Shown here: positions 21,252-59,121 of the stretch, piece by piece
Layout: each line of letters opens with the position of its first letter
Numbering within the stretch: position 1 is the stretch's first letter
Notes under the pieces: model-generated
Database searches by the model: none
Told to the model about the DNA's origin: nothing
Seen by the model: only the letters and a program-made list of their open reading frames with translations
Made by a program: the position numbers and the translations under genes
Assembly: GCF_007743815.1 (NCBI RefSeq)
Contig: NZ_CP036265.1
Coordinates: 5,215,823 to 5,279,822, forward strand
Source: Alienimonas californiensis
Lineage (GTDB): Bacteria; Planctomycetota; Planctomycetia; Planctomycetales; Planctomycetaceae
Direction of reading: 5' to 3'
Length of the DNA: 64,000 nt

Positions 21252-21262
21252 CGGCGAGCTGA

Positions 21263-21338
21263 GGCGAGCGGTGGGCGTCAGCCCTCCGTGTTCTCCTACG
21301 CTTCCCAACACACGGAGGGCTGACGCCCACCGCTCGCC
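21263..21338. repeat. Inverted repeat containing the GGCTGACGCCC element
   Basis: A 29-nt arm at 21263-21291 pairs perfectly with 21310-21338 across an 18-nt loop. The right arm includes GGCTGACGCCCACCGCTCG (21318-21336). Nearly identical single arms occur at 55109-55129 and 59081-59101. The hairpin may terminate valS, but it has no T run. It ends directly against a TACACT box. Confidence 0.8.
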
Positions 21339-21344
21339 TACACT
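21339..21344 (+). promoter_or_regulatory. -10-like box TACACT
   Basis: TACACT lies 34 nt before the GTG of the bifunctional-nuclease-family gene and abuts the preceding inverted repeat. Confidence 0.5.
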
Positions 21345-25024: not shown

Positions 25025-25040
25025 AAATCTTGTAGAAGCA

Positions 25041-25114
25041 TCAAGGACCAAGAACTCAAGAACCGAGGGGACGAGCGGCCCACCTGCTTTGGTTCTTGAA
25101 TTCTTGGTCCTTGA
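25041..25114. repeat. Imperfect 24-bp inverted repeat, AT-richer than its surroundings
   Basis: The arms 25041-25064 and 25091-25114 match with one mismatch across a 26-nt loop. The arms contain AAGGACCAAGAACTCAAG and are strikingly less GC-rich than the chromosome around them. It separates two convergent genes, so it could act as a bidirectional terminator. Its composition suggests an acquired repeat unit. Confidence 0.8.
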
Positions 25115-25134
25115 GATTTCGACCACAGGCCGCC

Positions 25135-26835: not shown

Positions 26836-27677
26836 CAGACCCGTACGGGGCCGCACTCGCCGTCCGGGCGGACGACCTCGAATCGCACGCCCTGCGGCAG
26901 AACCCGGCTCGCCCGCACTCTTCCGAGGCCGTCCGCTGGATGGCAGCGAACCCGCGGCACCCCCGGCAACGCCGGCCAGAACAACACATGGGCGCTGCCG
27001 ACGCCGCCCTCGCAGTGCACCAGCAACTCCCCCTCTACCACGTCCGCGGTGCGAGAGAGCCACTGATCCGGCTCCGGCCCCTCGAGTTCGTCTTCCTCGA
27101 GATCCTCCTCGAACCCCGGCTCCTCAAGCTCCGGGTCGTGTTGAACGATCGGAGCGAAGGCCCGCAGGTCGTCGTGAGCCCGGAGCAGAAGCTCCGGCGG
27201 CGCCTCGTCCGCCCTGCTGGCGACGTCGCGGGTCGAGGCCTGCGTACCTGCGGCGCCAAGGCCCGGCAGCCCGAGGCGCACGCCGAGGTTGTGCAGCATC
27301 GCGGACCCACCCGGCCTCGGCTCGCGTCTCGGGCTGCCAGGGGGCCGAACGCCGGGGCCGGAGACCCGCAGGGCGATCCAGGCGGCGAGCGCCATGAGCG
27401 TCGCCCCGTTCCAGCCGAAGGCGCCGATCGTCCAACCGGCGAGCGGCGCCGCGGCGACCCAGCCGCGCCAAAGCGGCGGCGCGTTCCGCCAACCCCACAC
27501 GGCGGCTGCCGCGGCGAGGCCGGCCGCGAGCGTCGCCCGCACCGGCCACGGCCCGGTCGCCAAACCGAGTGCCAGCCCGACGAGCGGCACGACCGCCGCC
27601 AGCCCCCACGCCGCCGCGAGCGCCGGGCCGATCCACGGGCGACAGCGGGGCGAGGCGGCGAACATCCCCCCGACCAT
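26817..27677 (-). CDS. Membrane protein of unknown function
   Basis: The protein has 286 residues. Three or four hydrophobic segments fill the first 110 residues: PALAAAWGLAAVVPLVGLAL, PVRATLAAGLAAAAAVWGW, WVAAAPLAGWTIGAFGWNGA and TLMALAAWIALRVSG. A soluble C-terminal part follows. It contains an acidic stretch (ELEEPGFEEDLEEDELEGPE) and a beta-rich domain ending in VRPDGECGPVRVCYEAA. No family is recognised. It lies downstream of metK on the same strand with 69 nt between them, so the two could share a transcript. Its stop overlaps the convergent gene by 19 nt. Confidence 0.65.
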   Translation of the reverse strand: MVGGMFAASPRCRPWIGPALAAAWGLAAVVPLVGLALGLATGPWPVRATLAAGLAAAAAVWGWRNAPPLWRGWVAAAPLAGWTIGAFGWNGATLMALAAWIALRVSGPGVRPPGSPRREPRPGGSAMLHNLGVRLGLPGLGAAGTQASTRDVASRADEAPPELLLRAHDDLRAFAPIVQHDPELEEPGFEEDLEEDELEGPEPDQWLSRTADVVEGELLVHCEGGVGSAHVLFWPALPGVPRVRCHPADGLGRVRASRVLPQGVRFEVVRPDGECGPVRVCYEAAV

Positions 27678-29087: not shown

Positions 29088-30467
29088 TCACGCAGCCCGC
29101 GCCAGCGGCGTATCCGCTGCGACGCCGCCAACCGGCAGCAGGGCGACGAGGGCGTCCGCGGTACCGGCCGTCGCACCGGCGTTCTCCCGAATGACCCGCT
29201 GCGCCCGGGCGCCGATCGCGGACCGCTCCGCCGGGTCTTCAAGGAACCGCAGCGCCGCGGCGGCGAGCGATTCGGCGTCCGTCACCTCCACCACCGCGTC
29301 GGCGGCGGTTAGCTTGGCGACCACGTCGGCGAAATTGCGGGTGTTCGGCCCGAGGGTCACCGCGGCCCCGTACGCCGCGGGTTCGAGCATGTTCTGGCCG
29401 CCGCGGTCGTTCAGGCTCCCGCCGACGAACGCGACCGTCGCCAAGCCCCACGCGGCGGAGAGGTCGCCGAGGGTGTCGAGCAGTAGGACGGGGTGAGGCG
29501 GGAGGGGTGATGAGGGAGGAGAGATTGGCGAGTCGGCGGACGTCTTCCCCTCCCTCCTCCCTCCTCCCCCCTCACTCCGAATCCGGCTGAGGCGGCGGAC
29601 GGCGACGTCCCGCCCCGCCACCAGCGCCGCCACCGCGTCGAACCGCTCCGCGTGACGGGGGGCGATCAGCAGGCGGCAGTCGGGGACCGTGAGGCGGATC
29701 TGTTGGTACGCGTCCAGCACGATCGCCTCCTCCGGGTCGCCGGTGCTGCCGGCGAGCAAGACCTGTTCGGCGGGGTGGAGTCCGAAGGCCTCGCGTAGTG
29801 CCTGTGTAGCGGGGTTGGCCGGATCGACGTGCAGGCCGTCGAACTTCACGCTGCCGGTGACGGCGACCCGCGCGGGATCAGTACCGAGGGCGACGAAGCG
29901 GTCGGCGTACTCCTCCGTCTGCGTTCCCACCCAGCCCAGCCGGGCGAAGGTGCCGCGGATCAGCGGGCGGATGCGGCGGTAGCCGCGAAAGCTGTTGGCG
30001 CTCAGGCGGCCGTTCACCACGGCGACCGGCACGCCGGCGGCCTCGCAGCGGCGGACGAGGTTCGGCCAGAGTTCCAACTCGACCAGTGCCAGCACGGAGG
30101 GCCGGGTCCGGGCGAGGAAGGCGTCGATCGCCCAACTGAAATCCAGCGGAGCCTGATGCACATCGACGTCCGGCAGCTTGCGGCGGGCCACGTCCAGGCC
30201 GGTGCCGGTGGAGACGGTGACGACGTGCGCCGCGTCCGGCCGCCGCTCCCGCACGGCGGCGATCAGGTTCGGCAGTTGGAGGACCTCGCCCACGCTGACG
30301 GCGTGCCACCAGACGCAGGGCCCCTGCTCCGTCCGCGGCTCGACGCGGCCGGTCAGCTTCTGCTTCCAGCCGCTGCGGTCCTTGCCCTGCACCAGTCGAC
30401 GCCACGCCAGGAGGGGCGTCGCGAGGACCAGCGTGAGCAGGTAGGCGGCGTTGAACAGGTGCGGCAT
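29088..30467 (-). CDS. waaA: 3-deoxy-D-manno-octulosonic acid (Kdo) transferase
   Basis: A membrane-anchored GT30 glycosyltransferase of 459 residues that adds Kdo to lipid A precursors. The N-terminal anchor is FNAAYLLTLVLATPLLAWRR. Family motifs are VWWHAVSVGEVLQLPNLI, VVTVSTGTGLDVARRKLPDV, LALVELELWPNLVRRCEAAG, VNGRLSANSFRGYRRIRPLI and the C-terminal VAFVGGSLNDRGGQNMLEPA. It is about 30 residues longer than most WaaA proteins because of an in-frame low-complexity insert (IRSEGGGGRREG to SPISPPSSPLPPHP), encoded by a palindromic repeat, just before LLLDTLGDL. A functional WaaA implies lipopolysaccharide. It starts 31 nt after secA, likely in one operon. Confidence 0.93.
   Translation of the reverse strand: MPHLFNAAYLLTLVLATPLLAWRRLVQGKDRSGWKQKLTGRVEPRTEQGPCVWWHAVSVGEVLQLPNLIAAVRERRPDAAHVVTVSTGTGLDVARRKLPDVDVHQAPLDFSWAIDAFLARTRPSVLALVELELWPNLVRRCEAAGVPVAVVNGRLSANSFRGYRRIRPLIRGTFARLGWVGTQTEEYADRFVALGTDPARVAVTGSVKFDGLHVDPANPATQALREAFGLHPAEQVLLAGSTGDPEEAIVLDAYQQIRLTVPDCRLLIAPRHAERFDAVAALVAGRDVAVRRLSRIRSEGGGGRREGKTSADSPISPPSSPLPPHPVLLLDTLGDLSAAWGLATVAFVGGSLNDRGGQNMLEPAAYGAAVTLGPNTRNFADVVAKLTAADAVVEVTDAESLAAAALRFLEDPAERSAIGARAQRVIRENAGATAGTADALVALLPVGGVAADTPLARAA
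29491..29579. repeat. Palindromic repeat inserted in frame within waaA
   Basis: A purine-rich arm at 29491-29522 contains GAGGGGTGATGAGGGAGGA. It faces a pyrimidine-rich arm at 29545-29579. The first arm matches the element at 54181-54277 in 18 of 19 positions over that stretch. The insert is translated as Gly/Arg- and Pro/Ser-rich sequence and keeps the waaA frame. Confidence 0.75.
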
Positions 30468-53144: not shown

Positions 53145-55064
53145 GTGAGTCCTTCCCCCGTCGATTCGCCCGCCACCGAACCCTCCCGGTCCGCCCGACT
53201 CCGGCGTTGGGCGCCGCCGGTCGCCGCCGCGGCGATCGCGTTCGTCGCCGTGCTCTGTCAGCTCGATCCCGGCGGGGCCGATCCCGGCATGCCGCAGGGG
53301 CCGGGGCTCACGGTCGACGAAGGCTTCTACACGCAGCAGGGCGTCTACCTCGCCGCGGCACGGCATTTCGGGCTGGCGCTGCTGGACCCGCGGACGCTCG
53401 GCGAAATCTTCGACACCGACGCCGGCTACATGGCGGACCACCCGCCGCTGGCGAAGCTCTGGCTGGGACTGTGGCACGACCTCGCCTGGTGGGCTCACGC
53501 TCCCGAAAGCCCCGGCGGCTTCTTCAGCGTGGCCCGGGCTCGGGTCGGCAGCGCTGCGGCGTTCGCGCTGACCGTGGGGCTACTGGTGCTCTGCGGAACC
53601 CGCTGGTACGGCCTGCCGACTGGGTTGGCGGCCGGGGCGAGCCTGATCCTCATGCCGCGGGTGTTCGGACACGCGCACATCGCCTCGCTGGAGACGGTCA
53701 CGAACCTCTTCTTCACCGCCTGCCTGTGCGGCGTGGCGGCGTGGTGGAACCCTCGCGTCACGACGTTCAAACGGCCGGCCCTGTGCGGGCTGCTGTTCGG
53801 CCTCGCCCTGCTCTGCAAGATTCAGGGGGCGCTGCTCGGCCCAACGGTCGCTGTCTGGGCGCTCTACCACGCTTGGCGGGAGCACGGCTGGAAGGAAGGG
53901 TGGCGGGCGATCGGCCCTGTCGCGGTCTTCGGGGGCGTGGGACTGTGCGTCTTCTTCGTCGGCTGGCCCTATCTCTGGCTCAACCCGAGCGAGCATGGGG
54001 CGGCGTTCCTCGGCACGATCACCGACCGCCTGCCGATTCGGAACTACTACCTCGGCCAGGTCTGGAACGGTGAGGAGTTCGATCCGACTCCTTGGCACTA
54101 CCCGCTGGTGATGACCCTCGCCACGGTCCCGGTCGGGATCACGGCGTTGGCTCTGTATGGGGCTTGGCGGGGAGGCATCTGGGGAGGAGTGAGGGGTGAG
54201 GAGGGAGGAGTAAGGCGTGAAAAATTGGGAACCGCAGGCTCGTCCCCCCTCCCCCCTCCCTCCTCACCCCTCACCCTGTTCACCGCCGCGGTCCTCGTCC
54301 CGCTGGCCCTCGTCAGCACCCGCGGGGAGAGCCTGTACGACGGCGTGCGACTCTGGCTGGTGATCTTCCCCCCGCTGGCGCTGTTGGCCGGTCGGGGGGC
54401 CGGGTTGTTGTTCGAACGCCTGAAGGATTGGCGGCCGAAGCTCGCGGTGCCGGCGGTGGTGGGGTTGCTGGCGGTTCAGGGGGTCAACGTGGTCTGGATG
54501 AGCCCGGTCTGGCTGAGTTCCTACTCGGCAGTCGTCGGCGGGCTGTGGGGGGCGGACCGACTGGGGTTTGAGCGGAACTACTGGGGGGACGCGGTCACGC
54601 GGGACTTGCTGAACGCGGCGGACCGGCAGGCTCACACGAACGCCCCGTTCTTCGTCGCTCCGGCGCTGCACCAGTTCGCGGACGACGACCGGGCGGCCGC
54701 CTCGCCGGCGGTGCGGCGGCGGAATGACACGTGGGAGATGCTGTCGCCGCTCGAACAGGCCGACGGCTTAGGTGGCGACTCGCCTTCCGGGCTCGCCTTC
54801 GGCTTCCATGAACTCGACGTCTTCGGCACGATCCGATTCGCCCGCCGAGCCTACTGGCAAGCGATCGCGGAGCCATACACTCCGCCTTACGAGACCTTGC
54901 TAATCGACCGCCCCGCCCGGTTCCTCCCGGGCCGTCTGGTGATGCGGCGACAGGGCGTCGTGCTCGCCGTCGCCCCAGTCGATGCGGAAGTTCCCAGACC
55001 GACCGAGGCGGAGTGGGGGGCGATGAGGCTCAGAGCCGCGGCCACCGGAGCTCCGCCGCCCTGA
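53145..55064 (+). CDS. Polytopic membrane glycosyltransferase (ArnT/PMT-like fold)
   Basis: A 639-residue integral membrane protein with about 11-13 hydrophobic segments. After the first segment (AAAAIAFVAVLCQLDPGGAD) an acidic loop opens with LTVDEGFYTQQGVY, and then comes MADHPPLAKLWLGLWHDLAW. In GT-C enzymes of the ArnT/PMT type, the first loop carries catalytic Asp/Glu residues and an HPPL-like motif. The helices that follow include PRVFGHAHIASLETVTNLFF. The soluble tail (about 510-639) is likely periplasmic. A palindromic repeat is inserted in frame at 54181-54277. It may transfer a sugar from a polyprenyl phosphate donor. The GTG at 53145 fits the TAAACT box. Confidence 0.75.
   Translation: MSPSPVDSPATEPSRSARLRRWAPPVAAAAIAFVAVLCQLDPGGADPGMPQGPGLTVDEGFYTQQGVYLAAARHFGLALLDPRTLGEIFDTDAGYMADHPPLAKLWLGLWHDLAWWAHAPESPGGFFSVARARVGSAAAFALTVGLLVLCGTRWYGLPTGLAAGASLILMPRVFGHAHIASLETVTNLFFTACLCGVAAWWNPRVTTFKRPALCGLLFGLALLCKIQGALLGPTVAVWALYHAWREHGWKEGWRAIGPVAVFGGVGLCVFFVGWPYLWLNPSEHGAAFLGTITDRLPIRNYYLGQVWNGEEFDPTPWHYPLVMTLATVPVGITALALYGAWRGGIWGGVRGEEGGVRREKLGTAGSSPLPPPSSPLTLFTAAVLVPLALVSTRGESLYDGVRLWLVIFPPLALLAGRGAGLLFERLKDWRPKLAVPAVVGLLAVQGVNVVWMSPVWLSSYSAVVGGLWGADRLGFERNYWGDAVTRDLLNAADRQAHTNAPFFVAPALHQFADDDRAAASPAVRRRNDTWEMLSPLEQADGLGGDSPSGLAFGFHELDVFGTIRFARRAYWQAIAEPYTPPYETLLIDRPARFLPGRLVMRRQGVVLAVAPVDAEVPRPTEAEWGAMRLRAAATGAPPP
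54181..54277. repeat. Palindromic repeat inserted in frame within the glycosyltransferase gene
   Basis: A purine-rich arm (GAGGGGTGAGGAGGGAGGA within 54190-54210) faces a pyrimidine-rich arm at about 54243-54277. It matches the element in waaA in 18 of 19 positions over that stretch. It is translated as GVRGEEGGVRREKLG and SSPLPPPSSPL and preserves the frame between two membrane segments. Confidence 0.75.
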
Positions 55065-55108
55065 CGATCGCGATCCTCCTCCGTTCCCTCCCACAAGAAC
55101 ACACGGCG

Positions 55109-55129
55109 GGCTGACGCCCCCCGCTCGCC
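55109..55129 (+). repeat. Single-arm copy of the GGCTGACGCCC repeat upstream of moaC
   Basis: GGCTGACGCCCCCCGCTCG begins this copy, which matches the right arm of the inverted repeat after valS except for one base, and it lies 28 nt before the moaC start. ACACACGG precedes it, as at the other copies. Confidence 0.65.
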
Positions 55130-55157
55130 TTCGTCCTTCAACCTTCAACCTGCCCCC

Positions 55158-59056: not shown

Positions 59057-59080
59057 GCCGCCGCTCCCCGTGTCTCAGGG

Positions 59081-59101
59081 GGCTGACGCCCCCCGCTCGC
59101 C
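59081..59101 (+). repeat. Single-arm copy of the GGCTGACGCCC repeat upstream of arfB
   Basis: This 21-nt stretch is identical to the copy before moaC, and lies 20 nt before the arfB start. It is the third member of the family in the window, in the same orientation. Confidence 0.65.
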
Positions 59102-59121
59102 TCGCCCTCGCCTCGCCCGTT

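Follow-up and report, generated by a model that had tools for sequence, protein, structure and literature searches.

The stretch of DNA analysed here (the window) comprises 64,000 nucleotides of the Alienimonas californiensis genome (G000; a single contig of 5,475,215 bases), at C1:5215823-5279822. Its forward strand carries, at 53145..55064, a gene for a PMT_2-type membrane glycosyltransferase (GT), identified by its coding score, a spanning open frame, an orthologue in Alienimonas chondri and a match to PF13231 that barely clears the Pfam cut-off (26.9 vs 26.1 bits; E 6.2e-6). The A. chondri protein is the nearest named record (74% over residues 33-647), and the start codon is the gene finder's choice. 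Within this gene lies a palindrome with heptamer arms (54179..54277, + strand), recognised from its pattern, frame scores, fold and a structure model. It consists of a 5' purine arm of six heptads of the form GGRGKGA (54179..54220: CTGGGGA, GGAGTGA, GGGGTGA, GGAGGGA, GGAGTAA and GGCGTGA), a locus-specific spacer, or loop, of 22 nt (54221..54242) and a 3' pyrimidine arm of five heptads in reverse complement (54243..54277). The same forward frame, alone among the six, scores coding-positive on either flank, and a single open frame spans the element, which bears out an earlier note on this DNA that had placed an in-frame palindrome here. Folded as RNA the element reaches -56.4 kcal/mol (z -3.71), a value equalled by none of 200 dinucleotide shuffles.

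In an AlphaFold2 model of GT (12 aligned sequences, mean pLDDT 65.5, pTM 0.71) the insert occupies residues ~345-378 and is flanked by predicted helices at 330-345 and 375-390, in agreement with its proposed position between two membrane segments. Residues 347-372 have pLDDT below 50, with a short helix modelled at 354-361 inside the insert, and the insertion site is a loop that varies in length among relatives. The element encodes a linker of roughly 33 residues, probably flexible, between two predicted helices, and the linker is likely near neutral. No constant peptide is found among the copies.

A second palindrome of the same family lies in frame in an unrelated gene on the reverse strand, waaA/kdtA (Kdo transferase; 29088..30467; PF04413, E 6.5e-55, and frame). 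This copy (29490..29578, - strand) was recognised from pattern, arms, fold and frame scores on both flanks, and here too the earlier note's claim of a second gene with an in-frame copy stands. It forms a strong RNA hairpin (29490-29586 folded; z -3.23), as GT does; the hairpin energy of a copy in mnmG is unremarkable (z -1.30), so that two of the three copies folded are strong hairpins. The window by itself is a weak test for heptamer periodicity because at a threshold of 0.75 lag 7 (3 regions) is not above lag 6 (3) or lag 15 (4); at 0.85 there is one region at lag 7, one at lag 15 and none at the remaining lags in 4-14. Two other palindromes were seen in the window, one at 25032-25123 with AAGAACC-like units and one at 27265-27338 that may lie in frame within a gene for a small membrane protein, although that gene call is uncertain and may be wrong.

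Genome-wide, a three-heptad pattern with at most 2 mismatches matched 95 places in G000, against 45 for the reversed pattern, a weak control because the reversed heptamer resembles itself. When matches with no more than 3 mismatches were grouped, and 2 or more were required per group, the stretches fetched gave 26 clusters. These are not a full census: single-match places were excluded (1086000, 1503164, 1530174, 1666196, 1666338, 1735918, 2059999, 2072116, 2244038, 3728000 and L058:4461), several of them without a rescan for a second match. On rescan (L220), 1666196 and 1666338 gave overlapping one-strand matches in G-rich runs, and evenly spaced samples of the genome yielded a few further matches at up to 3 mismatches (L216, L221, L222). 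Seventeen of the 26 clusters have two arms, and all 17 run in the same polarity, from purine arm through spacer to pyrimidine arm; the nine one-armed clusters are not all necessarily family members. Arms hold 3-7 heptads, spacers measure 9-86 nt and clusters 80-156 nt.

Five of the 17 two-armed copies are internal to a gene, as defined by a spanning open frame: those in waaA, GT, hisF, mnmG and a DnaB-like gene (DnaB-N and AAA_25 domains). In all five the spanning frame carries coding signal on both flanks. Two one-armed clusters are also in frame, one in the SMC hinge and one in an amino-oxidase-family gene that we take to be hpnE. All 12 remaining two-armed copies separate open frames of the same strand or sit where such a frame ends, seven beginning 2-28 nt past a stop codon and five overlapping a gene 3' end by 7-46 nt. 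Their neighbours include cytochrome bd subunits I/II, Cpn10/Cpn60, ATP synthase alpha/beta-type and delta/epsilon-type, ROK and Ppx/GppA, and HhH-GPD and DCD pairs. For these 12 pairs, Pfam was searched with 11 of the left-hand open frames and 9 of the right-hand ones (left out were both L050 frames and the right-hand frames of L049 and L052; the L044 right-hand frame matched nothing). In the eight pairs with both neighbours recognised, that is excluding L044, L049, L050 and L052, the families differ and none is a split gene. As the earlier note had suggested, one dispersed family resides in unrelated conserved genes; the family has one polarity, is often found between genes of the same strand just past a stop codon, and in some cases lies in frame in a protein loop. 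Separately, we observed that 57 residues of the SMC C-terminus recur with 96% identity roughly 2 kb downstream of smc (G000:C1:45345-45515), and that G000 has other in-frame palindromes, one within a gene for a penicillin-binding transpeptidase (L228 10467-10535) and one within a membrane-protein-like gene (L218 11889-11949).

We also compared the arms and spacers of the elements. Spacers and encoded peptides differ from locus to locus and only the heptamer recurs; instead of the fixed 19-nt core that had been postulated, the unit is a degenerate heptamer. At the R/K positions, arm similarity is 0.636 within and 0.685 between elements (permutation p 0.96, 17 elements), and the full ungapped arm score is 17.0 within vs 17.5 between (p 0.81, 17 elements). 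Two arms taken from one element therefore resemble each other no more than arms taken from separate elements do, that is, they are independent heptad draws. The mechanism first considered, template-switch copying of one arm into the other, predicted greater likeness within elements and was set aside on these p values; template switching may still be one of several copying routes.

The sister species, presumably A. chondri (G001), was the sole same-genus genome in the searched sets. At up to one mismatch the heptamer pattern has 46 matches in G000 and 0 in G001, and at five of six comparable sites (GT, waaA, DnaB-like, hpnE and hisF) G001 has a repeat other than the G000 family. Four of these involve REP-type repeats, mostly of a family termed F2 (GGCGAGCGGNGGGCGTCAGCCC): the GT site in the A. 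chondri record holds one F2 unit with 2 mismatches, waaA an inverted F2 pair (0 and 2 mismatches), the DnaB-like gene two inverted F2 pairs (1-2 mismatches), and hpnE another REP pair with 1 and 3 mismatches to a REP beside a Y1 gene. The hisF site has a different heptad, and the mnmG site of G001 has no repeat and a short loop. Residues 367-879 of SMC found no match in G001.

Sequence between the arms can be common to the two species. Sixteen of the 17 bases of the mnmG spacer (GTCGACGGTGACGCCAC) are matched in G001, where both arms are absent; loss of both arms in G001 may be an alternative to their gain in G000. In hisF the core reads NRLRTIERPAPTQPGFR in G000 and ERLRLVERPAPEQPGFR in G001. 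Its arms are of GGRGKGA heptads in G000; in G001 they are of the GGATGTC type and match each other perfectly over 19 nt in inverted order, and in G015 the core is flanked by different heptads. The DnaB-like gene has the core PGFEGANF, which stands between heptamer arms in G000 and is flanked by the two inverted F2 pairs in G001. Since spacers are common to the sister species at mnmG, hisF and the DnaB-like gene while arms differ or are absent, insertion of a whole palindrome fits poorly there. Either arms would have been added around resident sequence or arms would have been replaced with the core kept.

Next, we looked at the same genes in other planctomycetes. The flanks of the inserts align to orthologues with shorter loops, and the loop is short in many genomes. 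Across hisF, waaA, mnmG, hpnE and smc (24, 24, 21, 14 and 13 genomes; ~154 kb) we found 16 lag-7 arrays, vs 0, 1, 2, 1, 4, 2, 0, 2 and 0 at control lags 4, 5, 6, 8, 9, 10, 11, 12 and 13, those not divisible by 3 giving 0-2 each. These counts omit mnmG fragments L170-L173, waaA fragment L143 and smc of G001 (L269), and cover for hpnE and smc the loci returned by their searches. All 16 arrays lie at G000 insertion sites, in eight gene-genome pairs: hisF of G001 and G015, waaA of G012, mnmG of G002, G012, G013 and G015, and hpnE of G008; smc of the 13 other genomes has none. The array segments printed translate through without a stop, and the heptads at shared sites differ (e.g. GTTGAGA, GTCGAGA, GTCAAGG, GAATTCC and GAACATC). 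In other genera, the same loops thus hold heptamer arrays of other sequence. The product of the site fractions over the eight pairs is 2.7e-10, an optimistic figure given the relatedness of the genomes and natural loop variability, and the recurrence of sites partly reflects both. A palindrome was found in two (L279, L283) of 17 segments scanned; L295 and L297 were left out and several SMC segments hardly align. That of L279 (288-366, G007) is GC-rich and lies within hpnE at a different site. In G013, waaA (L142 / L212 8878-9032) carries a GGGTGCCGGGGGCGTGTCGCCCCC palindrome and an adjacent ACAAGCCCGCAGCGC-type one in the same loop.

The heptamer signal extends beyond these loci. With lags 6, 9 and 12 set aside for codon periodicity (45, 39 and 53 in G000), at a threshold of 0.75 lag 7 gave 39 regions in 400 kb of G002 (2, 1, 2, 0, 0 and 2 at lags 4, 5, 8, 10, 11 and 13), 14 in 400 kb of G013 (0, 0, 0, 0, 0 and 3) and 10 in 464 kb of G000 (7, 7, 6, 6, 7 and 5). 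The G000 excess is weak also at 0.85 (3 vs 0-1), where the regions are partly the window's own elements. At the orthologue loci and a threshold of 0.8, 7 of 15 genomes of the family contain arrays, 22 in all as against a total of 1 for six control lags, and none of 9 class-level outgroups contains any. The G000 heptamer pattern at up to one mismatch has 1-10 matches in 12 of the 39 genomes beyond G000 and G001; among these, G030 has a much higher count for the reversed control (185), which points to a related heptamer there. Another heptad, CTCAACN, has 319 matches in G012, 116 in G002 and 0 in G000 and in all 15 class-level genomes, its reversed control being also positive in several genomes (e.g. 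42 in G002 and 59 in G015). The metH gene of G002 (L191 6192-10073) contains two in-frame heptad palindromes between Pfam domains. An additional stretch in this gene looks one-armed, and G013 has heptamer arrays of 136 and 100 nt (L206 5676-5811, CTCACCA-like; L200 15988-16087, GACTTCC-like).

We examined the surroundings of the Y1_Tnp matches listed for the two genomes, 5 for G000 and 7 for G001, of which 3 fall under the Pfam cut-off. One REP family, F2 among them, flanks the gene on both sides at 4 of 5 places in G000 and 4 of 7 in G001, including two sub-cut-off matches (L306 and L312). The places without two-sided flanks are L305, L309 and L311, with no flanking REP, and L313, with REPs on one side; the L308 place is cut by a contig end. 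F2 has 111 matches in G000 and 123 in G001 (reversed control 0 and 1), of which those at 21262-21339, 55090-55130 and 59062-59102 fall in the window, and it flanks Y1 genes L303 and L307 on both sides, as a REPIN/RAYT family does. Two perfect heptads of the GGRGKGA family occur at none of the 12 Y1 places of the two genomes within stretches of 2.2-4.0 kb, and RAYT mobilisation of the heptamer family finds no support in these flanks. Two kinds of palindrome thus coexist, RAYT-linked REPs and heptamer pairs that are not linked to Y1 genes in the examined stretches. Of the mobile element envisaged by the earlier note, recent spread is argued for by the 46 matches against none in G001, but the link to a transposase is missing (0 of 12 places).

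Altogether, we lean, with some reserve, towards the reading that these palindromes are short inverted pairs of degenerate heptamer arrays, expanded in the Alienimonas lineage, whose arms are copied around resident sequence and filtered by tolerance. Arms would arise and spread by copying during replication or repair, through slippage within arrays, and template switching or ectopic conversion between copies could spread them as well; such a copying mechanism is a proposal. New arms would be placed around resident sequence, and insertions would be tolerated in a fair share of cases, the remainder being removed by selection. That share is inferred from the frames of the elements, about half of the six per copy being stop-free (14 of 30 for internal and 38 of 72 for other copies). 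As the arms of one element are not mutual copies, the direct signature of fold-back template switching is gone in G000; only in hisF of G001 is conserved sequence enclosed by arms that pair perfectly over 19 nt. The spacers common to sister species, the unmatched arms and the Y1 flanks free of this family count against a different origin, namely a palindrome mobilised by a RAYT/Y1 transposase (a REPIN or MITE) and inserted as a unit, as is thought for the Rickettsia palindromic elements (RPEs). Two inverted arms, a variable spacer and fixed polarity would suit such an origin, as would the Y1_Tnp genes flanked by other palindromes, but against these three observations we regard it as unlikely.

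Selection of the inserts for a function, as helpful linkers, mRNA hairpins or translation pauses, would explain the reuse of sites across genera, the two strong hairpins and the copies that lie between the genes for Cpn10/Cpn60, for cytochrome bd subunits and for ATP synthase. We nonetheless judge it quite improbable, as sequence, length and repeat type vary site by site, the orthologue loop is short in many genomes, including mnmG of G001, and the GT segment is modelled with low confidence. Hardly more credible are ancestral in-frame insertions that were inherited vertically and then diverged, without repeated landings: the core enclosed by the hisF arms can be recognised in G001, G015, G011 and G005 and the DnaB-like core in both Alienimonas, but the heptamer is absent from G001 at up to one mismatch, where REP-type palindromes occupy GT, waaA, DnaB-like and hpnE and another heptamer hisF. 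Chance GA/CT low complexity of coding sequence, an objection raised by the earlier note, could account in part for the one-armed in-gene matches (SMC hinge, hpnE), and matches to the control pattern are nonzero and lag 7 is unremarkable in the window at 0.75. A degenerate heptamer unit recurring in 26 clusters, 17 with inverted arms, the lag-7 specificity in other genomes and the alignment of both flanks to shorter-loop orthologues make this extremely improbable. A further reading, in which a lineage-specific process of this planctomycete family grows inverted heptamer arms around resident sequence and rewrites them with new heptamers at the same protein loops, the arms turning over and the core being kept, is possible but tentative. 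If true, protein loops would evolve here in a way that differs from the insertion of mobile palindromes. The sister genomes let the steps be read, and the system provides a natural map of insert-tolerant sites and a test of whether inverted heptamer arms move, grow or get rewritten.

RPEs are the best-known case of repeat DNA turned protein, in intracellular parasites. According to PMC2229807 and PMC10969869, which describe the work of Ogata et al. (2000, 2002), they are palindromic repeats of ~100-150 bp that lie in frame in conserved genes as well as between genes and are tolerated; an in-frame RPE had a mild effect on guanylate kinase (PMC2229807), and RPEs form sequence families that encode a conserved peptide (PMC10969869). 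The likeness to RPEs drawn by the earlier note applies to the outcome, in-frame palindromes of 80-156 nt within conserved genes that are unrelated to one another (5 of the 17 copies with two arms), but not to membership: the heptamer family encodes no conserved peptide, its spacers are locus-specific, the same loops carry different heptamers in other genera, and its host is a planctomycete rather than a member of the Rickettsia/Wolbachia lineage. REP/REPIN elements with RAYT transposases are inverted short repeats near gene 3' ends that can also be intragenic (PMC3733652, PMC3116915); intragenic REPs are described in several species, including a verrucomicrobium, and REP types in Planctomycetes (PMC3733652). 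F2 and other Alienimonas families, with their flanked Y1 genes, resemble these, unlike the heptamer family, for which we found neither a Y1-flanking copy nor a fixed REP sequence. The dispersed 7-nt direct TAACTGA repeats of Beggiatoaceae, found at many places (PMC4679880), are similar, except that their unit is fixed and the Alienimonas heptamer degenerate. Heptameric repeats are also described in Xanthomonas (GGGAATC) and Nostoc (GGGGA(C/T)T), with inverted pairs in Xanthomonas and positions just past stop codons (PMC4692102). The Alienimonas family shares with this STRR/Xanthomonas kind of repeat a tandem degenerate 7-nt unit (the lag-7 signal being clear in G002, G013 and the orthologue loci and weak in the window and G000 sample) and inverted pairs, 17 in number, near gene 3' ends (7 of 12 non-internal copies 2-28 nt past a stop, 5 overlapping a gene end). 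It differs in that the Xanthomonas and Nostoc repeats, as described in PMC4692102, are one per organism and mainly intergenic, whereas core genes of Alienimonas carry theirs in frame, at sites that recur in other genera. Among the matches listed in the openly licensed PMC literature, none concerned planctomycete heptamer palindromes or in-frame repeats. The outcome is RPE-like but built from heptamer repeats, with the same sites reused across genera; it places repeat-derived segments in housekeeping enzymes of another phylum (hisF, mnmG, waaA and metH), where different repeat families reuse the same loops.
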